In this document: one piece after another, positions 24,513 through 47,701 of the stretch
How the letters are laid out: every line of letters begins with the position of its first letter
How positions within the stretch are numbered: the first letter of the stretch is position 1
Source: Thermodesulfovibrio sp. N1
Lineage (GTDB): Bacteria > Nitrospirota > Thermodesulfovibrionia > Thermodesulfovibrionales > Thermodesulfovibrionaceae
DNA: 47,701 nucleotides
NCBI RefSeq assembly: GCF_001707915.1
Contig: NZ_MAVV01000008.1
Coordinates: 1 to 47,701 of the forward strand
Reading direction: 5' to 3'
Made by a program: the position numbers and the translations under genes
The notes under the pieces: model-generated
What the model was told of the DNA's origin: nothing
What the model saw: only the letters and a program-made list of their open reading frames with translations
Databases searched by the model: none

Positions 24513-24528
24513 TGGCAAAGTCTTTGCT
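24513..24528 (+). promoter_or_regulatory. Sigma-54 promoter of the uspA-tauE-phnD operon
   Basis: TGGCAA-N5-TTGCT matches the -24/-12 sigma-54 consensus (TGGCAC-N5-TTGCW) with only the sixth base different. The conserved GG and GC have the required spacing. The predicted start is at about 24539, some 28 bp before ATG 24567. It sits downstream of two dyad sites suitable for an NtrC-type activator. Confidence 0.85.
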
Positions 24529-24566: not shown

Positions 24567-24983
24567 ATGCAAAAAATTTTAGTGTGTTTTGATGGTTCAG
24601 AATGGTCGAAGAAAGCTTTAGAGCAAGCAATAGAGATAGCTCAAAAATTTGATTCCCATATTACAGTTTTATCGGTTGTCCCAAAGGTTTGTTTTTTAGA
24701 AATTGGCATTGATTGCGCCACTGTTGAAGCAATATTTAAAGCAGAAACAGAGGGAAATCTTAATTCTGCCAAAAAAATCATGAATGAAAAGGGGGTGAGA
24801 GGAGAAACTTTAATTTTAGAAGGTACACCAGCAGATGTAATTGTTGACTACGCGAAGGACAACAAAATTGACTTAATCGTTATTGGTTCAAAGGGTAAGA
24901 ATGCCACTGAAAGAACGCTTTTTGGAAGTGTTACTCAGAAAGTAGCAGTCAATGCTACTCAATCTGTATTGATTGTAAGATAA
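24567..24983 (+). CDS. Universal stress protein (UspA family)
   Basis: This 138-residue cytoplasmic protein has the UspA fold: strand KILVCFDGSEWSKKALEQAI, the middle EGTPADVIVDYAKDNKIDLI, and the ATP-binding motif GSKGKNATERTLFGSVTQKV with G-x2-G-x9-G-S spacing, so it is probably the ATP-binding type. Two Cys occur near residues 46-54 (VCFLEIGIDC). It is the first gene after the sigma-54 promoter, 19 bp before the split permease gene, so it is likely part of the same response. Confidence 0.92.
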   Translation: MQKILVCFDGSEWSKKALEQAIEIAQKFDSHITVLSVVPKVCFLEIGIDCATVEAIFKAETEGNLNSAKKIMNEKGVRGETLILEGTPADVIVDYAKDNKIDLIVIGSKGKNATERTLFGSVTQKVAVNATQSVLIVR

Positions 24984-25002
24984 TAATAGGAGGGGAGAAA
25001 AT

Positions 25003-26226
25003 ATGAAAATTTGGATATTATTTTTAGCTTTAATTTTCTTTGCTTCAGGTAATGCCTTTGCAGAACAAACGCAAGAACAAGTTACATTGCCTCAGGAACA
25101 GGTTACGTTGTCTTTAGACAAATCTGTCTATGAAGGAGGAGAAATCATTAAAATAAAAGGAAAGGCTCCTGCAGGTAGACCCGTTTATATTGAAATAGCC
25201 TCTGAAAAAAAAGTTCAAGTTTCAAGGCTTGATGCAAGAAGAGATCCAGATACAGGGAAAATACCCTATATATTTTATTTAAGTAAAGATATTCCCGCTC
25301 TGTATATGATTCTTATGCCAAAGGAGGTTGAAGAGGCATATAAAATTGAAGCAGCTAAGGATAAAGACTGGAGCGTAAGCAGAATGCTTACAACAACTGG
25401 AGCAGATGTAGCTTATATAACTCCTGGAAAGGCTGTCGTTGAAAGATGGCAGGCATCTATTTTAGCCACTATAATGGGCTCAAGAGGTGAAAAACTTGAA
25501 CCACTCGATGAAAAGGGTAACAGAAGACAATCAATGCCTCTTATGAAAGCGAGATTTAGATGGCCTGAAAGGATGTTTAGTCCAACAATAAAGATAAATG
25601 AAGACGGAACCTTTGAGGCGGAATATAAATTGCCTGATAACGCACCAAGCGGTAATTATACAGTAATTGCTGTTGTTGATAAAGATTTGAAAAGTGAAAC
25701 TGTAACTTTTAAACATGAACTTTCCTTTGGAGAACTTTATTTTGACAGAGCAGGGCAGAGTCTTAACGTAATCGGACCATTCTTACTCGCAACTGTCGTT
25801 ACCACATTTGGCGTTTTAATGGGTGCTGGTGGAGGTTTTATTCTAAATCCTCTGTTGATATTTATATATGGAATACCTCATACAATTGTAGCAGGCTCTG
25901 TTCTCCCAACAGTTTTATTTAGCCAAGCAAGTGGTATATATAACTACACAAGAATAAAATTCATAAGCTGGAAATTAGGCGTTGGTGTAGGATTGGCGAT
26001 GTTAGCAGGAGGATTCATTGGTCCTAAGCTTACAGAGATGATAACTCTTGAACAATATAAGTTTCTCTTTGGTTGGGTGCTTTTAATTCTTGGTGCTATT
26101 ATGCTTTGGCAGACAACGCCAAAATACATTGAAAGAAACAAAAAAGAACAGGCTATTTTAAAAGAATTCAAGAGAAGGGCAGAGGAAGCAGCTGCTAAAA
26201 AAGCTGAGAAAAAATTACAAAAATAG
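25003..26226 (+). CDS. TauE/SafE-type permease half fused to an exported beta domain
   Basis: This 407-residue protein has a signal peptide (1-20) and an extracytoplasmic beta-rich domain (about 35-240, opening LSLDKSVYEGGEIIKIKGKA, like bacterial Ig/macroglobulin-type domains). Four TM helices follow (about 255-370), carrying the DUF81/TauE-SafE repeat motif GVLMGAGGGFILNPLLIFI with IPHTIVAGSVLPTV. The charged C-terminal tail (about 375-407) is Lys/Ala/Glu rich. TauE/SafE proteins export sulfite, sulfoacetate or similar anions, or import other small anions, and normally contain two such repeats. Only the first is here, and the second is the next gene. A GGAGGGGAG site precedes ATG. Confidence 0.8.
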   Translation: MKIWILFLALIFFASGNAFAEQTQEQVTLPQEQVTLSLDKSVYEGGEIIKIKGKAPAGRPVYIEIASEKKVQVSRLDARRDPDTGKIPYIFYLSKDIPALYMILMPKEVEEAYKIEAAKDKDWSVSRMLTTTGADVAYITPGKAVVERWQASILATIMGSRGEKLEPLDEKGNRRQSMPLMKARFRWPERMFSPTIKINEDGTFEAEYKLPDNAPSGNYTVIAVVDKDLKSETVTFKHELSFGELYFDRAGQSLNVIGPFLLATVVTTFGVLMGAGGGFILNPLLIFIYGIPHTIVAGSVLPTVLFSQASGIYNYTRIKFISWKLGVGVGLAMLAGGFIGPKLTEMITLEQYKFLFGWVLLILGAIMLWQTTPKYIERNKKEQAILKEFKRRAEEAAAKKAEKKLQK

Positions 26227-26241
26227 TAAAGGAGGTATGCT

Positions 26242-26643
26242 ATGAAAATTGAATTCTGGGGACAAGAATTTAAAGCAAATATGATAGTTGGCTGTACTGG
26301 TGGTTTTTTAATAGCAGTAATGTCAAGTATGTTTGGTTTTGGTGGCGGTCCTTTCATGGTTCCTTTAATGACTGTAATAATGGGACTTCCTATGTATGTC
26401 GTTGTCGGAAGCTCTCTTTTAGCCATATTTTTTAACACTTCAATGGCAACTGCTAGAGTGATTGGCTTTGGAAATGTAGATTTCTTACTGTTTGCTATAA
26501 TGGCTATTGGTGCTATAATTGGAGGTAATGTTGGTCCAAGAATAGCTCAAAAATTGAATCCTCTTTGGGTCAAAAGGGTAGCTGTTATTGGTCTTACAAT
26601 ACTAGCATTCATGCTTTTAGGCGTAATACCTACGCCAAGATAA
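26242..26643 (+). CDS. TauE/SafE-type permease, second half as a separate gene
   Basis: This 133-residue protein has four TM helices carrying one DUF81/TauE-SafE repeat: FLIAVMSSMFGFGGGPFMVP, then LPMYVVVGSSLLAIFFNTSM, VDFLLFAIMAIGAIIGG and RIAQKLNPLWVKR. It starts 15 bp after the first half with its own strong AAAGGAGG site, so this looks like a true split gene rather than a frameshift. The two products probably form one transporter. A glycine-rich GxGGG motif is present in both halves. Confidence 0.8.
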   Translation: MKIEFWGQEFKANMIVGCTGGFLIAVMSSMFGFGGGPFMVPLMTVIMGLPMYVVVGSSLLAIFFNTSMATARVIGFGNVDFLLFAIMAIGAIIGGNVGPRIAQKLNPLWVKRVAVIGLTILAFMLLGVIPTPR

Positions 26644-26664
26644 AAAAATAAAAGGAGGTTTGTC

Positions 26665-27501
26665 ATGAGTAAGAAGTTGTTGTTAATTGCCTTAGTTGTA
26701 TTGCTGGTGTTTCCTTTCAATGCAATTGCAAAGGAGTTGAAGTTTGGTGTTCTGCCAAGGCTTACAGAGAAGGAAATGAGAGAAGGTTTTACACCCCTTG
26801 CTGACTATTTAAGTAAAGAGTTAGGAGTCAAGGTTGTTCTTGTGATACCAAAGGATTTTGACACATGGAGAAAAGAAGCTGAAGCAAGACAATACGATTT
26901 TGTCTACACCAATCCCTATCTTTATGTTTTACTAAAAAAGGCAGTTCCTGAAACAGAACCGCTTGTTATAGCTTCAGAACCAGAGATTGGTGATGATATC
27001 AAAGGAACAATAATAGTTAAAAAGGAAAGTCCTATTAAAACAATTGCTGATCTTAAAGGAAAAACCATTGCTGCAACAGATCCAGGTTCAGCAGGTGCGT
27101 ACCTTGTACAGATGATGATGTTAGCAAAGGCTGGTATAAAAAAGGATGATGTCAAAATAATATTTGAAAAGAAACGTGATCCTGTTGCAGAAGCTGTACT
27201 TACTGGAAAGGCAGATGCAGGTTTTGTAAGAGATGATGATGTTGAAAAATTAAAAGTTGGTGCAGGTAAATTCCGTAAGTTAGCAGTAAGTGAGCCAATA
27301 CCTAATTGGCCTATAGCTATATCAAAGAAAATGGATCCTGAATTAGCAAAAAAATTAAGAGATGCATTGATTAAACTCAAAAAAGGTGATCTTAAGACTA
27401 TATCAGTATTAGGACCAGCAAGAATAGAAGGTTTTGTCCCAGTAAAAGACAAAGATTATGATATTATGAGAGAAGCTGCCAAGGCAGTTGGTGCATGGTA
27501 A
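26665..27501 (+). CDS. PhnD-like periplasmic oxyanion-binding protein
   Basis: This 278-residue protein has a signal peptide (cleavage near AIAKE, residue 23) and the PhnD/phosphonate-binding fold. Visible motifs are LKFGVLPRLTEKEM, FTPLADYLSKELG, the hinge YDFVYTNPYLYVLL, IADLKGKTIAATDPGSAGAY, GKADAGFVRDDDVEKL and PNWPIAISKKMD. The family binds phosphonate, phosphite and related oxyanions, and relatives act as sensors (AioX). There is no Cys in the mature part. No ABC permease or ATPase is encoded nearby, so a role in sensing or in delivery to the adjacent permease is inferred. Confidence 0.85.
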   Translation: MSKKLLLIALVVLLVFPFNAIAKELKFGVLPRLTEKEMREGFTPLADYLSKELGVKVVLVIPKDFDTWRKEAEARQYDFVYTNPYLYVLLKKAVPETEPLVIASEPEIGDDIKGTIIVKKESPIKTIADLKGKTIAATDPGSAGAYLVQMMMLAKAGIKKDDVKIIFEKKRDPVAEAVLTGKADAGFVRDDDVEKLKVGAGKFRKLAVSEPIPNWPIAISKKMDPELAKKLRDALIKLKKGDLKTISVLGPARIEGFVPVKDKDYDIMREAAKAVGAW

Positions 27502-27676: not shown

Positions 27677-29770
27677 ATGTCTAAAGTTTCATCTGTATAC
27701 AGCAATTGTGGAATGTGTTCAGTAAGATGTCCCATACAGGTAGAAGTTATTAATGGAAGAGTTACTTGGATAGAAGGAAATCCCTATGTTGCAGGCATAG
27801 AAAGCAGTCTTTGTGCTAAGGGCTCTGCTGGACTGTCTCTTCTTTATGACTTTGAAAGACCTCAATATCCCATGATAAGGACTGGTGAAAGAGGTTCTGG
27901 TCAGTTTAAAAGAGCAACATGGGATGAAGCCTTTGCCTATGTAGCAGAGGCATTGAATAAAATTCAATCTCAGTATGGCAAAAAATCTGTTGCACTACTT
28001 GACAGAGGTGCAGGATTATTTGGTGAAATTCAAAGATGTTTTCTAAGAGCAATTGGTTCACCAAATTATTTTAGTCATGATGACTTTTGCAGAAAAAATG
28101 TTGACCTTGCCTATCAAAGCCTTCTTGGATATGGAAGGCCAGAGATTGGTTATGACTTTGCAAATACCCGTCATATGGTTTTTTATGGTAGAAACGCCAT
28201 TGAAGCATTGGGTGTAAGGGAGGTTAACAATATTGTTAAGGCTCTTACAAATGGTGCTAAACTTACATACATTGATGTAAGAGCAACTAAAACTGCAACA
28301 AAGGCTACAAAATTTTTGCAAATAAGACCAGGCACTGATTATGCTTTAAATCTTGCACTAATTCATGTAATTTTAAGAGAAAACCTTTTTGATAGAGACT
28401 TTGTAGACCGCTTTGTAACTGGACTTCCAGAGCTTGAAAACTTCATTAAACCCTACACTCCAGATTGGGCTGAAAAAGAAACAGGAATTCCAGCCTATGA
28501 AATAATTAATCTTGCAAGACAGCTTGCCTCTGACAGCCCTAAAGTAATCCTTTATCCTGGATGGTTTGCTGCAAGAACAATGGATTCCTTTTATTTTGCA
28601 AGGTCAGTGATAATTCTGAATGCCCTTCTTGGAAGCATTGAACAGAAGGGTGGGTTAATTTTAGCAAAAACTCCAAAAGAAGTTGGAGCAAAGGGACTTA
28701 ATAGTATTCTTGAAAGAATTCCCGCACCAGCTGACAAAAGAGTTGAAGCAGAGGAAGGCAAAGGCTTCCTTTATGATGGTGCAGGACATATTCTTCACCT
28801 ATACAGAGCTATAAAAACAGGTGAACCCTATCCAATAAAAGCACTTTTTGTTGTCCGTTATGATCCCTTTGCAGGTATCACCCATAAAGACATAAAAGAA
28901 ATTTTAAATGGACTTGATCTTCTTGTTGCAGTAGATACAAATTATTCAGCTACTGCCTGGTATGCTGATGTGGTTCTTCCAGAGTCTACCTATCTTGAAA
29001 GGGATGATATAATAGGGCTCCAAAGAGGAGCAAAGCCAACATTAGTAATGCGCAGGAAAGCAATAAATCCTATCTATGACACCAAAGGTAAATGGGAAAT
29101 ATTCACAGGACTTACAAAAGCCTGTGGTGCAGGTGAGCACATGCCCTATGAAACAATAGAAGATATATGGAATTATCAACTTGAAGGAACAGGAATAAAA
29201 ATTGAAGATTTCAACAAAAATGGACAGGTTGCACTTTGTAAAAATCCAGTGATGTACAGTAGAGATGAGCTTAAGTTTAAAACACCTTCAGGAAAAGTAG
29301 AGATACTTTCAAGTAAGATGACAGAAAGAGAAGTTCCATATTTTCTTGATTTCCAGACACCTCCGAAACCAAATATTGAAGAAGGAGAATTTAGACTTGT
29401 CTTTGGAAGAATGGCAGTTCACACCCATGTTCAAACCCATAACAACAAGTACCTAAATGAGATTGTACCAGAGAATGAACTCTGGATAAATGAAGGAGTA
29501 GCTAAAAAACTTGGTATAAAAGATGGAGATACTGTTGAGGTTTCCTCTGGTGATTACAGTGGAAAAATTAAGGCAAAGGTAACTCCATTCATTCATCCAG
29601 AGGCTGTATTTATGTACCGTGGATTTGAAAATGAAGTTCCTGTCAAAACTCGCTCCTATGGGAAAGGTCTTAATGAAGGCAGGCTCCTTAAAGGTGCCTT
29701 TGAAAAGATGGCCTATGGAAGCCATACAGGTGCTCTTTTTGAATGTTTTGTTAAGGTAAGAAAGGCATAG
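27677..29770 (+). CDS. Cytoplasmic molybdopterin oxidoreductase (DMSO reductase family)
   Basis: This 697-residue enzyme has a [4Fe-4S] motif at Cys11, Cys14, Cys18 and Cys46, followed by molybdopterin domains. Cys138 (DDFCRKNVDLAY) aligns with the Mo/W ligand position, as in polysulfide/thiosulfate/arsenate-reductase relatives. It has no N-terminal signal: the first Cys is at residue 11 and no RR motif is seen, so it should stay in the cytoplasm. It is clearly homologous to the Tat-exported enzyme at 14555 (shared GTDLALxLxxI-type and FKTPSGK regions). The substrate is unknown, and the context suggests a sulfur or other oxyanion. A strong AAAGGAGGTG precedes ATG. Confidence 0.85.
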   Translation: MSKVSSVYSNCGMCSVRCPIQVEVINGRVTWIEGNPYVAGIESSLCAKGSAGLSLLYDFERPQYPMIRTGERGSGQFKRATWDEAFAYVAEALNKIQSQYGKKSVALLDRGAGLFGEIQRCFLRAIGSPNYFSHDDFCRKNVDLAYQSLLGYGRPEIGYDFANTRHMVFYGRNAIEALGVREVNNIVKALTNGAKLTYIDVRATKTATKATKFLQIRPGTDYALNLALIHVILRENLFDRDFVDRFVTGLPELENFIKPYTPDWAEKETGIPAYEIINLARQLASDSPKVILYPGWFAARTMDSFYFARSVIILNALLGSIEQKGGLILAKTPKEVGAKGLNSILERIPAPADKRVEAEEGKGFLYDGAGHILHLYRAIKTGEPYPIKALFVVRYDPFAGITHKDIKEILNGLDLLVAVDTNYSATAWYADVVLPESTYLERDDIIGLQRGAKPTLVMRRKAINPIYDTKGKWEIFTGLTKACGAGEHMPYETIEDIWNYQLEGTGIKIEDFNKNGQVALCKNPVMYSRDELKFKTPSGKVEILSSKMTEREVPYFLDFQTPPKPNIEEGEFRLVFGRMAVHTHVQTHNNKYLNEIVPENELWINEGVAKKLGIKDGDTVEVSSGDYSGKIKAKVTPFIHPEAVFMYRGFENEVPVKTRSYGKGLNEGRLLKGAFEKMAYGSHTGALFECFVKVRKA

Positions 29771-29781
29771 GAGGTGAATAG

Positions 29782-30288
29782 ATGAGCATTTATTACATAT
29801 ATCAAGATCATGAAAAATGTATAGGCTGTTATGCCTGTGAAGTTCATTGTAAAACAAAAAATGACTTACCTGTTGGTCCAAGGCTTTGTAGAATCATAGA
29901 AACTGATATAAAATTGGTCGGAGGACTGCCAAGACAGAGATTTGTATTTATGCCTTGTTTTCATTGTGAAGACCCTTGGTGTGTTAAAGCCTGTCCAACA
30001 GGGGCAATGCAAAAACGTTCAAAGGACGGAATTGTTTTTATTGAACAGAGCCTGTGTATAGGTTGTAAATCCTGTATTACAGCCTGTCCATGGGGAGTTC
30101 CTCAATGGAATTCTGAAACAGGAAGGGTTGTCAAATGTGATTACTGTAAAGACAGAGTTGATCAGGGATTAAAACCTGCATGTGTAACTAAATGTACAAC
30201 AAAGGCATTAAGATTCATCTCAGCCGATGAAGCATCAAGGTTAAAAAGAGAGAGATTCGTTAAGGATACTTATGAATCCCTTTATTGA
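29782..30288 (+). CDS. 4Fe-4S ferredoxin-type subunit of the cytoplasmic molybdoenzyme
   Basis: This 168-residue protein has four Cys clusters of the PsrB/NrfC type: CIGCYACEVHCK near 14, CFHCEDPWCVKACP near 62, CIGCKSCITACP near 94, and CDYCKDRVDQGLKPACVTKC near 120-139. It carries electrons to or from the catalytic subunit encoded 11 bp upstream. No membrane-anchor gene follows, unlike the operon at 14555, so the pair probably works with a soluble donor or acceptor. GGAGGTG precedes ATG. Confidence 0.9.
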   Translation: MSIYYIYQDHEKCIGCYACEVHCKTKNDLPVGPRLCRIIETDIKLVGGLPRQRFVFMPCFHCEDPWCVKACPTGAMQKRSKDGIVFIEQSLCIGCKSCITACPWGVPQWNSETGRVVKCDYCKDRVDQGLKPACVTKCTTKALRFISADEASRLKRERFVKDTYESLY

Positions 30289-43312: not shown

Positions 43313-43346
43313 AAAAGGGTATGGGAGATTTCTCCCATACCCTTTT
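43313..43346. terminator. Bidirectional intrinsic terminator
   Basis: A nearly uninterrupted 15-16-bp stem, AAAAGGGTATGGGAGA (43313-43328) with TCTCCCATACCCTTTT (43331-43346), sits between the convergent chemoreceptor and response-regulator genes. T-rich sequence follows on both strands, so it can end transcripts from both sides. A C-rich stretch (43290-43310) precedes it. Confidence 0.85.
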
Positions 43347-44692
43347 TATTCATCTTCTATTGAACCATTAAGAAGTCCATGATGTTTCATTTTTGTGCGA
43401 AGCTGTTTTCTAGAAATTCCTAAGACCTGAGCAGCCTTTGTTTGATTCCAGCCTGTTGAATTTAATGCTCTAAGAATTAAAGATTTTTCAACTTCTAATA
43501 GGTTCAAACTACTTTCTTTATATAATGTCCAACCTGTTTTTTCTATTATTCTTTTTGGTAGATGTTTCATTGAGATAATACCAGAAGGAGAAAGTACTAT
43601 AGCTCTCTCTATAACATTTGCAAGTTCCCGAACATTTCCACTCCACTCATAATTTATTAAGGTATCCATAACTTCAGGTTCAAGTTGTGGAATTGGTTTA
43701 TTATTTTCCTTTGAATATTTATTCAAAAAATGGTTAACAAGCAAGGGTATGTCTTCTTTACGTTCCCTTAATGGAGGAAGATTAATTCTTACAACATTAA
43801 GTCTCCAGTAAAGGTCTTCTCTGAATGTGCCTTCTTGTACTAATTTTTCAAGGTCACGATTTGTTGCAGATATAACGCGCACATCAACCTTTATTCGTGC
43901 AGTGCTACCTATTCTTTGAATTTCCCTTTCCTGTAAAAATCTTAAAAGTTTTTTTTGTAAGGACATTGGTAGTTCACCAATTTCATCAAGAAATACTGTT
44001 CCTTCATTGGCAATTTCAAAGAGTCCGGTTTTTCTTTCCACAGCACCTGTGAAGGCTCCCTTTTCATGTCCAAAAAGTTCTGATTCAAGAAGATTTTCAG
44101 GAATGGTTGTGCAATCAACGATAACAAAAGGTTTTGTATTTCTCAAAGATTTTTTATGAATTGCCCTTGCAACAAGTTCTTTACCTGTGCCAGACTCTCC
44201 TGTAACCAATACATTTGCATTACTTTCAGCAACCATCTCCATTATGTAGAAAACTTCTTGCATTGCCTTACTTTTTCCGATAATTTCAGGGAAAGGACTG
44301 TATACTTTTTCCTTTTCTTTAAAAAGAATTGATGATTTTTCAATAGCCTCCTTTAAAACATTTATTAAAAGTTCAGTATCAACAGGTTTTATTAAATAGT
44401 GATAGGCACCTAATTTCATTGCTTCAACTGCTTTTTCTATTGTGCCATAGGCGGTAAGCATTACTGTCGGGATATTAATTCCATTGTATTTTAGCCATTT
44501 TAGTAATTCAATTCCGTCCATCTGAGGAAGACGATAATCAAGAAGAAGGCAATCAACAGATGTTTCTTTTAAGAGGGAAATTCCCTCTTCAGCGGTTGTG
44601 GCAGTAAGAACATCAAAGCCTGCTTTTTTTAAAATAGCAGAAATAGCCTTCAAAGCGCTTATTTCATCGTCTATATAAAGTATTTTTGCCAT
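43346..44692 (-). CDS. Sigma-54-dependent response regulator (NtrC family)
   Basis: This 448-residue protein has a receiver domain (1-120) with phospho-acceptor Asp52 (LLLDYRLPQMDG). The sigma-54 AAA+ domain (about 140-375) shows Walker A GESGTGKE, the sigma-54 contact loop GAFTGA, Walker B FLDEIGELP and an R-finger region. A Fis-type HTH (about 405-440) has NQTKAAQVLGISRKQLRTKM. It activates sigma-54 promoters after phosphorylation by the adjacent kinase (6 bp upstream). It is the only such activator in the window and a candidate for the site at 24425-24528. Confidence 0.95.
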   Translation of the reverse strand: MAKILYIDDEISALKAISAILKKAGFDVLTATTAEEGISLLKETSVDCLLLDYRLPQMDGIELLKWLKYNGINIPTVMLTAYGTIEKAVEAMKLGAYHYLIKPVDTELLINVLKEAIEKSSILFKEKEKVYSPFPEIIGKSKAMQEVFYIMEMVAESNANVLVTGESGTGKELVARAIHKKSLRNTKPFVIVDCTTIPENLLESELFGHEKGAFTGAVERKTGLFEIANEGTVFLDEIGELPMSLQKKLLRFLQEREIQRIGSTARIKVDVRVISATNRDLEKLVQEGTFREDLYWRLNVVRINLPPLRERKEDIPLLVNHFLNKYSKENNKPIPQLEPEVMDTLINYEWSGNVRELANVIERAIVLSPSGIISMKHLPKRIIEKTGWTLYKESSLNLLEVEKSLILRALNSTGWNQTKAAQVLGISRKQLRTKMKHHGLLNGSIEDE

Positions 44693-44698
44693 ATATTC

Positions 44699-46300
44699 TT
44701 AAAGTTTAAGAGGTAATTCTATTATAAACTCTGTTCCCACACCTTTTTTACTATTAACAATTATATTACCATCATGGTCTTTGATGATTCTTTCAACACA
44801 GGCAAGACCTAATCCTGAGCCAGTTGTTTTAGTAGTAAAAAAGGGTTCGAAAATTTTATTTAAAAGCTCATCGGGAATACCCGTTCCTGTATCAGATATT
44901 TTTATTAATACTTTACTGTCTTTCTTAGATGTTGTAATTGAAATTGTATCCCCCCTGTTTGTAGCATCCATTGCATTAACCAAAAGATTAAGAATTGCCT
45001 GTTTTAATTGATGATTGTCAAAATAAAATTCTGGGATTTTTTCATCAAATTCTGTTTTTAATATTTTACCGTCCTCTTTTACTTCTGTTTCGATAAGTTT
45101 GATTACTTCTGTAAGGGATTTGTTTACATTAGCCTTTTCGTATTTTAAAGGGATTGGCCTTGCATAGGAGAGAAAACTGGTTATTAATTCATTTAATCTT
45201 TCAGTTTCTTTGTCAATGATTGATAGAAATTCTTTTAAAACCTCGCCTTCAAAATTTGATTTTATGTATGCTGTTGATGCCTTGATTGCATTAAGAGGAT
45301 TTTTTATTTCATGGGCAACAGTCATAGCCATTTCAGCCATTGCCGAGGATTTTTCAAGTCGCAGTTTTTCCTTTGTAGCTTTATCAAGTTCTTCAAGAGA
45401 ATTTTTAAGTTTTAATATCATCTCATTAAAGGTTTCAATTAGATATCCTATTTCATCGCCACAGGAAATTTTATAAACATAACAGTCATTGCAATCAATA
45501 CTATGGCATTGTTTACAATTTTCCTTTGCCTCTCTTATTAACCAACATCTTTCCTTGCCATAGGCAGGGCATTCAGTTTTATTACAAGAAAGAATGTCTT
45601 TACAAAGTACAATAGAAGGATTTTGACAAATTTCAAGTCTGTCTGCTTGAATATGGGACATTTTATTCTTAAGTCTTTGTAAAGGTTTTATGAGGGTTTT
45701 TGAAAGCATAAAGGACATAAAAACAGTAACGCCAAAGGCTAATAAGCTGAGAATAAAAATGTAGTTTTTTAGATTTTTTGTTACCTCTGTAATATGTTGA
45801 TCTATTTTATTTTCAGAAATCCCAGATCTCAAAACTCCGATAAAGGTATCACCAGCCATAATTGGAATATTTAAATGCCATATCCCTTCATGGTCAACAT
45901 ATTGCCATTTTTTAAGAGTATTTTTATCAAATTTTATAGAATTCCCCAACTCTTTTTTACTGCTATGTCCGATGATTCTACCATTTTTATCAGCTATCAT
46001 TATATATTCAATCCCGGGATTATTCATAATTAAAGTTATTTTTTCATCAATTGCCAGAGGATCAAAAAGTACAATATGGTCTATAGCATCCTTTGATAGA
46101 TTTTCAAGGACTGTTGATATATTCTCATTAATCTGGTTTTTGAGGGATTTTTTTTGATAATTAAGTATCAATAAATTAACAGCCACTATAAGAATTATAA
46201 AGAGAATTAAAAATGAAAGAAAAATTTTTCTTCCAATGCTTATTCTTTTTATTTTAATTAAAAATTTATTTGTTACTGAGCTTTTTAAGTGTTGCAACAT
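44699..46300 (-). CDS. Sensor histidine kinase with Cys-rich linker
   Basis: This 533-residue membrane kinase has TM1 (about 27-47), a periplasmic sensor of about 130 residues with a Cache/PAS-like look (EYIMIADKNGRIIGHSSKKE), and TM2 (about 180-200). A HAMP-like region is interrupted by ten cysteines between residues 225 and 280 (including ECPAYGKERCW and CKQCH). H-box His330 (VAHEIKNPLNAI), an N-box and G-boxes DTGTGIPDEL and GSGLGLA complete it. The start lies 35 bp inside the upstream binding-protein gene. CKQCH looks like a heme-c motif, but it is predicted to be cytoplasmic, so an Fe-S or zinc site is more likely. Confidence 0.88.
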   Translation of the reverse strand: MLQHLKSSVTNKFLIKIKRISIGRKIFLSFLILFIILIVAVNLLILNYQKKSLKNQINENISTVLENLSKDAIDHIVLFDPLAIDEKITLIMNNPGIEYIMIADKNGRIIGHSSKKELGNSIKFDKNTLKKWQYVDHEGIWHLNIPIMAGDTFIGVLRSGISENKIDQHITEVTKNLKNYIFILSLLAFGVTVFMSFMLSKTLIKPLQRLKNKMSHIQADRLEICQNPSIVLCKDILSCNKTECPAYGKERCWLIREAKENCKQCHSIDCNDCYVYKISCGDEIGYLIETFNEMILKLKNSLEELDKATKEKLRLEKSSAMAEMAMTVAHEIKNPLNAIKASTAYIKSNFEGEVLKEFLSIIDKETERLNELITSFLSYARPIPLKYEKANVNKSLTEVIKLIETEVKEDGKILKTEFDEKIPEFYFDNHQLKQAILNLLVNAMDATNRGDTISITTSKKDSKVLIKISDTGTGIPDELLNKIFEPFFTTKTTGSGLGLACVERIIKDHDGNIIVNSKKGVGTEFIIELPLKL

Positions 46301-47701
46301 CCTTATCAGTAACCTCTTTGAATCCTTTAATCTTTGCTTTTTTTAGTATATCAGGCTCTAAATTTGTGATTATTTCTTTAACTTTCGCTGTTAGTTCCTG
46401 ATTTCTGTTTCTAACCACTGAAAAGGGCCAGTTTGGAAGATATTCTCCGTAATCAAGAATCTTTATTTTTGATATATCTACTTCATCTGACCACACACTT
46501 AACGCCGCCTCTCTTATAAACCCTGCATCTGCTTCACCTTTGTAAACACCTATAATGACCTTTTCCTGCCTTTTTGCATCTATGAGTTTAAAATCACGAG
46601 TTAAATTAAATCCCTTTTTTTCAAGATAAATTTTTTGGGATAAAAAACCACCTGCAGAAGTGGGTGAGACAATCATTATTTTTTTACCTTTAAGGTCTTC
46701 TATTTTATTTATATTGCTATCCTTTCTTGTTATAATAATTCCCCTAAATCGTTCATCTCCGCATATACCTTCTTCTTGGGTGCAATCCTCACCAATTGTT
46801 ATAGCAAGGGCTTTTACTGGATATCTTTTTGATACAATTGAAAAAACATAGGGATTTTGATAGGAAAAATCTACTTTTCCTTCACTTACAATTTGAATAA
46901 ATTCTTCAAAATTTTTTGGAATAACAAGTTTAAACTCGTAACCAGTTTTCTCAGATAAATATCTCATTAGAGGGTCATATCTTTTATATATTGTAAGGGG
47001 GCTATAAAGAGGAAGAATAGCAACTTTTATTGTTTTTGGAGTGTACTCAATATAATCTTTTCCTTTTATATTTCTTATGAGCACCCTTATGTAATCAAAG
47101 TCTCTGTCTTCCGCATAGGAGAATTTTTCAATGTCTAAGGATTTCAGAACTTCCTTGTCTAATTGAGCAAGCAGATAAGATTTTATTTTTTCAATTTCGT
47201 CTCTTTCAATATTATTTAAATGAGCAATTAAAAATCTTGGAGTTGGTTCAGAATATCTTATTATTTTAAGTCCATCCTTCAAATATTTATTAGCTGTTAA
47301 TTCACTTACTGCTCCAATATCATAATCGCCGATAAGTACCGAAAGAGCAATCCTTTGCTCCTTTTGTAACATATCAACAGATTTAAAATCTTTCAGGGAT
47401 ATATCAACATCCTTTAACATGGAAAGGGGAATTAGATAACTGAATGATGATTTTTCATCTCCCAATGCGAGTTTTTTGCCGAGAGAATCAAAAATTTTAT
47501 CTATATTTTTACCTTCCTTTGTTATAAAAACACTTCTTGTTTCAGCTATTCCACCCTCTGGCTTAACTAATGGTAAAATATTATTTTTCATAGACCATTT
47601 AAGTTCACAGTATGTAGCAGGGTCAACAATAAGAAGATTTAATATGTTATCTTTGATTTTCTTTTCTAAATCATTAAAATCCCTTGCAATTTCAATTGAT
47701 A
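46266..47701 (-). CDS. Tandem PhnD-like periplasmic binding protein, upstream of the kinase (5' end outside window)
   Basis: The frame is open to the window edge, with PhnD-like residues upstream of ATG 47591 (LIVDPATYCELKWS). I therefore treat the gene as incomplete and the apparent ATG as internal. Two PhnD-type domains follow one another: a first half with VFITKEGKN and LALGDEKSSFSYLIPLSM, then a complete second domain from about VAILPLYSPLTIYKRYDPLM, with VDFSYQNPYVFSIV, DLKGKKIMIVSPTSAGGFLS and GEADAGFIREAAL. A Cys pair (CTQEEGIC, codons near 46761-46784) lies between the hinge and the DLKGK strand. It probably passes an oxyanion signal to the kinase, as AioX does to AioS. Confidence 0.8.
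   Translation of the reverse strand, partial: SIEIARDFNDLEKKIKDNILNLLIVDPATYCELKWSMKNNILPLVKPEGGIAETRSVFITKEGKNIDKIFDSLGKKLALGDEKSSFSYLIPLSMLKDVDISLKDFKSVDMLQKEQRIALSVLIGDYDIGAVSELTANKYLKDGLKIIRYSEPTPRFLIAHLNNIERDEIEKIKSYLLAQLDKEVLKSLDIEKFSYAEDRDFDYIRVLIRNIKGKDYIEYTPKTIKVAILPLYSPLTIYKRYDPLMRYLSEKTGYEFKLVIPKNFEEFIQIVSEGKVDFSYQNPYVFSIVSKRYPVKALAITIGEDCTQEEGICGDERFRGIIITRKDSNINKIEDLKGKKIMIVSPTSAGGFLSQKIYLEKKGFNLTRDFKLIDAKRQEKVIIGVYKGEADAGFIREAALSVWSDEVDISKIKILDYGEYLPNWPFSVVRNRNQELTAKVKEIITNLEPDILKKAKIKGFKEVTDKDVATLKKLSNK

Follow-up and report, generated by a model that had tools for sequence, protein, structure and literature searches.

A TauE/SafE family permease encoded by two adjacent genes in Thermodesulfovibrio sp. 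N1 and its relatives

The window analysed here is a stretch of 47,701 nt from Thermodesulfovibrio sp. N1 (assembly GCF_001707915.1, contig NZ_MAVV01000008.1, positions 1–47,701, forward strand). Two of its genes, ORF1 and ORF2, constitute a real and conserved variant of the known TauE/SafE (TSUP) transporter family, which occurs in dozens of relatives that metabolise sulfur, and are not the product of a sequencing error. Both ORFs were present as the first-pass annotation had described them, and its claim that a TauE/SafE permease is split over two genes holds. The Pfam TauE profile PF01925 is divided between the two proteins, with ORF1 matching profile positions 2–114 (66.5 bits) and ORF2 matching positions 126–235 (77.6 bits). 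Scored apart, each half exceeded the curated cut-off of 32.6 bits, and the two treated as a single stretch scored 142.4 bits. A standard TSUP/TauE protein carries both repeats on one polypeptide, which was the case neither here nor at any of the 53 loci described below. The remaining two TauE genes of the Thermodesulfovibrio sp. N1 genome are single-chain. No prior description of a split TSUP protein was found in the literature searched.

The gene pair and its junction

The coordinates of the pair and of neighbouring features are listed in Table 1. Sequence and hydropathy identified a hydrophobic, signal-peptide-like N-terminus in ORF1 that ends AFA/EQ. Each gene has its own Shine-Dalgarno sequence, as had been noted before: AGGAGG at approximately 24988–24993 for ORF1 and AAAGGAGG at 26228–26235 for ORF2. 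In most of the genus the ORF2 Shine-Dalgarno sequence is located within the 3' end of ORF1, which suggests that translation of the two genes is coupled there.

Table 1. Features of the split permease locus and its surroundings
Feature	Position	Strand	Evidence
Sigma-54-type promoter site, TGGCA-N6-TTGCW, 54 bp upstream of USP start	24513..24528	+	
Universal stress protein (USP), first gene of likely operon	24567..24983	+	Pfam Usp 7.9e-32
ORF1, 407 aa: signal peptide, exported PF09608-like beta domain, TauE repeat 1, basic C-terminal tail	25003..26226	+	
Exported domain, ORF1 residues 34–257	25102..25773	+	AlphaFold2 pLDDT 89.8; hhalign to PF09608 proteins 96.5%
TauE repeat 1 (PF01925 positions 2–114), ORF1 residues 260–378	25780..26136	+	Pfam match
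Junction: TAG, TAA, AGGAGG Shine-Dalgarno; common frame with both ORFs	26224..26241	+	
ORF2, 133 aa: TauE repeat 2 (PF01925 positions 126–235); starts with FWGxxF linker motif	26242..26643	+	
PhnD-like periplasmic binding protein, apparently exchanged along with ORF1 and ORF2	26665..27501	+	PF12974 3.5e-62; TIGR01098 over cut-off
PhsA-like molybdopterin oxidoreductase, no N-terminal signal (cytoplasmic)	27677..29770	+	PhsA model 516.6 bits; N-termini compared
PhsB/DmsB-like 4Fe-4S subunit	29782..30288	+	Profile matches; homologue in 22 of compared loci
NtrC-type (sigma-54 activating) response regulator	43346..44692	-	53–60% to regulators encoded upstream of split pair in other genera
Sensor histidine kinase (Cache/HAMP)	44699..46300	-	
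Tandem PhnD-like (Phosphonate-bd) domain protein, sensor partner of kinase	46266..47591	-	48–52% to proteins encoded near split pair elsewhere

The ORFs lie in one frame and are separated by only 15 nt, as a single-chain TauE gene damaged by a sequencing error or decaying as a pseudogene might appear. However, ORF1 ends with two consecutive in-frame stop codons, TAG (26224–26226) and TAA (26227–26229), after which come the Shine-Dalgarno sequence and ATG of ORF2. The halves had earlier been placed in two frames, and a frameshift error joining them had been named as grounds for rejecting the split. The assignment of two frames was mistaken. As ORF1 and ORF2 share a frame with TAG-TAA between them, a frameshift error is not a possible explanation. 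Moreover, the split recurs in many independent assemblies, in which stop codons, spacings and relative frames differ. For both genes dN was far below dS, with dS near saturation in the comparison with Caldimicrobium; judged by these substitution rates, both are under strong purifying selection. The probability of an error or pseudogene is therefore negligible.

Distribution and origin of the split

Both halves were readable at 53 loci from Nitrospirota, from a second phylum containing Caldimicrobium, and from Ammonifex. In all 53 the genes were adjacent, separate and never fused, with a median gap of 13 nt and a gap of 50 nt or less in 48. When the read-through of the pair was used as the query, the pair was found in the genus Thermodesulfovibrio, though missing from two genomes that are incomplete, and further families of the order had it as well. 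The same query matched two Caldimicrobium MAGs at 81–82%, and Ammonifex thiophilus also has the pair. Profiles of the exported domain were positive in 33 of 296 genomes in the phylum of the window and, counting strong matches only, in about 28 of 395 sampled genomes of the Caldimicrobium phylum; among 398 genomes of Ammonifex's phylum, Ammonifex alone was positive. In a sampled PF01925 survey of 31 genomes TauE was otherwise single-chain, save for a few fragmentary matches. Open-frame length had suggested a natural fusion at one locus (genome G097, contig C172), and reading of the sequence showed that the gene is split there too. At another split locus (L138, genome G204) ORF1 is broken into two overlapping ORFs (182 and 279 aa), which may reflect either decay of the gene copy or faulty assembly. 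The ORF1 homologue at L072 and L131 (G160) is 591 aa long, with about 170 additional N-terminal residues by a mechanical start call.

The search for fused as well as split homologues that had been recommended returned both kinds. Apart from the 53 split loci, the sample of the Caldimicrobium phylum contained a single-chain sister family of 558–576 aa (L141 and L143–L150). These proteins consist of a signal peptide, a related beta domain, repeat 1, a basic linker, an FWGxxF motif and repeat 2. The basic tail of ORF1 and the first residues of ORF2 (MKIEFWGQEF) correspond to the inter-repeat linker of this family. The FWGxxF motif is also found in L002, a single-chain TauE of the window's own genome, and was absent from the other canonical sequences tested.

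Profile comparison placed each split half closest to its counterpart repeat in single-chain TauE and not to the other half. Split repeat 1 gave hhalign scores of 98 against canonical repeat 1, 95 against fused-family repeat 1 and 67 against split repeat 2, while split repeat 2 scored 137 against fused-family repeat 2 and 83 against canonical repeat 2. In an IQ-TREE phylogeny the split sequences formed one clade (100/99), which joined the fused and L002-type proteins (99/98), separately from other TauE, the tree being midpoint-rooted with no true outgroup. The most likely explanation for these results is that the split arose by one fission event after the repeats had duplicated.

The opposite history, in which the repeats duplicated as separate genes that remained apart here and fused elsewhere, would predict the same pairing of each repeat with its counterpart, and the presence of separate genes in several phyla is consistent with it. 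However, the tree, although built on unrooted data, joins the split clade to single-chain proteins of the fused-domain and L002 types and not to other TauE, and the end of ORF1 and the start of ORF2 match the inter-repeat linker of those very proteins. With no true outgroup in the tree, we consider a pre-fusion ancestral state improbable. The earlier suggestion that the split halves reveal how the double-repeat permease originated is thus not borne out, since the halves pair with matching single-chain repeats and the neighbours of the split group are single-chain families with the same linker motif.

Exported domain, predicted membrane topology and the PhnD-like neighbour

AlphaFold2 prediction of ORF1 residues 34–257 with 13 sequences yielded a beta-rich model with a helical insertion (pLDDT 89.8, pTM 0.87). 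The signal peptide and exported beta domain ascribed to the first half were retained, whereas the description of a beta sandwich holds only in part, as the modelled domain of about 220 residues contains this helical insertion. Pfam gave hints of MG2 and PF09608 (Alph_Pro_TM) on ORF1, both below cut-off, PF09608 with 15.5 bits against a curated cut-off of 24.5. A profile of 62 split exported domains aligned with PF09608 proteins over about 150 columns with an hhalign probability of 96.5%, and with the fused-family domain at 96.1% over the domain start. These values suggest that the exported domain is a remote homologue of PF09608, not a member by cut-off. Foldseek with the exported domain gave only weak Ig-like or macroglobulin-type matches, with E values of 0.01 or worse and a query TM of at most 0.32 among the listed matches.

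In Nitrospirota relatives (L046–L050) a PF09608 gene is located between genes for a single-chain TauE and a USP. TauE, an exported beta domain and USP therefore come together more than once, one lineage encoding the domain by itself and another having it built into the permease. The name of PF09608 refers to Alphaproteobacteria, yet the compact set of L046–L050 is from Nitrospirota.

The membrane part of the AlphaFold2 read-through model was of low confidence (pLDDT mostly 35–75). The best Foldseek lead for this model (25003–26640) was the undecaprenyl-pyrophosphate phosphatase BacA/UppP, with a probability of 1.00, an E value of 0.024 and a target TM of 0.48; because of the low confidence of the membrane part, we do not claim this likeness. 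A PDB sequence search found no relatives of the read-through protein or of ORF2, and only chance-level matches for the exported domain and canonical TauE. Viral contigs searched for more diverse TauE sequences that could deepen the structural alignment contained no relatives.

Net loop charges were averaged over the 53 pairs. In repeat 1 the TM2-3 loop carried +2.75, the TM3-4 loop +0.09 and the tail +4.8; the corresponding loops of repeat 2 carried 0 (TM2-3) and +4.38 (TM3-4). By the positive-inside rule these charges place repeat 1 N-out/C-in, as the exported domain requires, and repeat 2 N-in/C-out. The charge bias suggests that the halves insert in opposite orientations, i.e. as an antiparallel pair. 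Single-chain TauE relatives showed an asymmetry in the same direction that was weaker, and the TM3-4 loop of fused-family repeat 1 carried +3. TSUP proteins have been described as 4+4 TMS (PMC7176098), in which case the repeats would be parallel, against the antiparallel model.

Alternatively, the two proteins could work independently of each other: ORF1 would be a sensor or scaffold anchored in the membrane, and ORF2 a half permease that forms homo-oligomers. In favor of this, the halves have separate starts and Shine-Dalgarno sequences, and small four-helix membrane proteins can dimerise. Nevertheless, the strict pairing at all 53 loci with such short gaps, the complementary and non-interchangeable nature of the repeats, and the opposite loop-charge patterns make separate action very improbable. 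We favor assembly of the two chains into one permease.

The gene that follows ORF2 encodes a PhnD-like protein. It scored 138.3 with TIGR01098 (phosphate/phosphonate binding protein), above the subfamily cut-off of 112.05, and 132.4 with the PhnD equivalog model TIGR03431, below the cut-off of 261.1. Identities of the window proteins ORF1, ORF2 and PhnD were 82, 81 and 84–87% to Caldimicrobium, compared to 53–60, 67–75 and 69–71% to their own genus. Most flanking genes were native-like: PhsA was 80–84% identical to the genus versus 46% to Caldimicrobium, and USP mostly 75–83% versus 54–59%. The order ORF1-ORF2-PhnD is common to the window and Caldimicrobium, whereas the genus has PhnD-ORF1-ORF2 or no PhnD. 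The region from 25003 to 27501 thus looks like a single ORF1-ORF2-PhnD cassette exchanged with a Caldimicrobium-like donor inside a native neighbourhood, and the joint movement of the three genes links PhnD to the permease.

PhnD orthologues adjoin the split pair wherever their location is known. However, the majority of split loci, and with them most of the genus, lack a PhnD orthologue and have only more distant homologues, mainly the tandem-PBP protein; docking of PhnD cannot be the general role of the exported domain. The link to the PhnD-like protein suggested earlier was thus upheld in part, by the joint exchange and by adjacency, but not as a general docking function. PhnD would appear to be an accessory to the permease, with docking optional at best. 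An obligate three-part, binding-protein-dependent secondary transporter, in which the exported domain docks PhnD, would account for exchange of the block between native-like flanks, for adjacency in two different gene orders, and for the result that no PhnE permease scored over cut-off in the Thermodesulfovibrio sp. N1 genome, which contains weak PhnE-like matches only. The many loci without a PhnD orthologue, again including most of the genus, and the conservation of the exported domain regardless of PhnD make such an obligate system unlikely. A bolder reading, a binding-protein-assisted secondary transporter on the TSUP fold with two antiparallel half-permeases and a periplasmic docking cap able to take up a PhnD-like protein for sulfur-oxyanion uptake, is in our view unlikely. 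If it were true, the charge pattern of such a transporter would also mean that the repeats of TSUP proteins are inverted and not in a parallel 4+4 arrangement.

Probable operon, proposed function and related systems

A sigma-54-type site, TGGCAAAGTCTTTGCT at 24513–24528, was the sole match in the window, where 0.40 were expected. Of 13 loci of the Thermodesulfovibrio group, 12 have such a site just upstream of USP, against an expectation of 0.005 from shuffling; at L036 a mechanical start call places it at −11. The genome contains rpoN, and the USP cluster was present in 22 of the compared loci. The split pair is likely to belong to an operon behind this conserved sigma-54 site, together with USP and the cytoplasmic PhsAB-like genes. 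Homologues of the NtrC-type regulator, the kinase and the tandem PhnD-domain protein (Table 1) lie directly upstream of the split pair in two genomes (G025 and G227), and one or two of them are near the pair in several others. The arrangement of the tandem PhnD-like protein (46266–47591, minus strand) beside the kinase and NtrC is reminiscent of TtrS-type sensing, with the sensor domain encoded here as a protein of its own.

The PhsA-like protein scored 516.6 bits, under the PhsA equivalog cut-off of 694. Of the compared loci, 26 have a PhsA-like gene; these loci come from several phyla, and the orientation of the gene varies among them. An N-terminal export signal was absent from all such neighbours examined. 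PhsAB-like genes are missing beside about half of the split loci. In the window the PhsA-like and PhsB-like genes are followed by nuo genes, with no PhsC between the end of the PhsB-like gene at 30288 and the nuo genes. We also note that a PhsAB-like molybdoenzyme (27677–30288) with neither an export signal nor a PhsC anchor is thereby encoded immediately before complex I genes. A similar PhsA-1/PhsB-1-Nuo run without PhsC is present in Desulfolithobacter dissulfuricans (PMC9751629). Its PhsA-1 was detected during both thiosulfate disproportionation and sulfate reduction, being slightly more abundant in the former, and two Nuo subunits beside PhsA-1 were found only in disproportionation; the authors pointed out that Phs levels were low and that this may not be the main route (PMC9751629). 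We consider MolyA of sulfur disproportionators (PMC12998232) an unlikely identity for the PhsA-like gene, because MolyA is predicted to be extracellular and the window protein has no export signal. TSUP specificity cannot be read from sequence (PMC5840216). Our best guess from gene context, a tentative one, is that the substrate would be a small sulfur oxyanion, with thiosulfate moving in or sulfite moving out.

We propose that the pair probably forms a two-chain TSUP permease, derived by a single fission of an exported-domain TauE at its linker, with antiparallel halves and a role in sulfur-oxyanion transport for the PhsAB-like enzyme. According to this model, a single-chain exported-domain TauE would have been cut once at the inter-repeat linker and stayed split since, fission being the well-supported step. 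A cleavable signal peptide would export the N-terminal part of ORF1, so that the beta domain would be periplasmic. Going by loop charges, repeat 1 would then insert N-out/C-in and its basic tail would be cytoplasmic, ORF2 would insert N-in/C-out, and the antiparallel halves would presumably join into one permease. The exported domain may be the built-in form of a periplasmic partner that is encoded as a separate neighbour of single-chain TauE. The permease would move a small sulfur oxyanion for the cytoplasmic PhsAB-like enzyme encoded downstream, its operon would be sigma-54-controlled under a PhnD-domain sensor/kinase/NtrC system, and the PhnD-like binding protein would have been added in some lineages.

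TSUP permeases are very common and poorly characterised, and the sequence search found no solved relative. A conserved natural split at the repeat boundary offers a direct handle on TSUP symmetry, topology and assembly. The exported domain and the likely operon also connect one TSUP subfamily with a PhsAB-like enzyme, with sigma-54 control and with the possible involvement of a binding protein in sulfur metabolism.

The pair resembles TSUP/TauE-SafE proteins (PF01925, TC 2.A.102) in having both repeats, in order and each over the Pfam cut-off, but differs from them in that the repeats are on two chains and repeat 1 bears a signal peptide and an exported domain of about 220 aa. The single-chain proteins L141 and L143–L150 have the same series of domains, with two-component genes nearby in L141, L143 and L145; they are one chain, however, and beyond about the first 70 residues their exported domain is no longer clearly similar. 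TauE, an exported beta domain and USP also occur together in the TauE-PF09608-USP operon of L046–L050, except that there a gene of its own encodes the exported domain and TauE is single-chain. In paired SMR transporters and DUF606 pairs, homologous halves are encoded by two genes and have inverted topology. The present pair is like them by analogy only, with homologous halves on two genes and probably in opposite orientations, but here a fixed double repeat would have undergone fission and a signal peptide sets the orientation of one half. Finally, TRAP transporters likewise combine a binding protein with two unequal membrane proteins in one cassette; this is a likeness in working with no homology claimed, and in the system described here the binding protein is optional.
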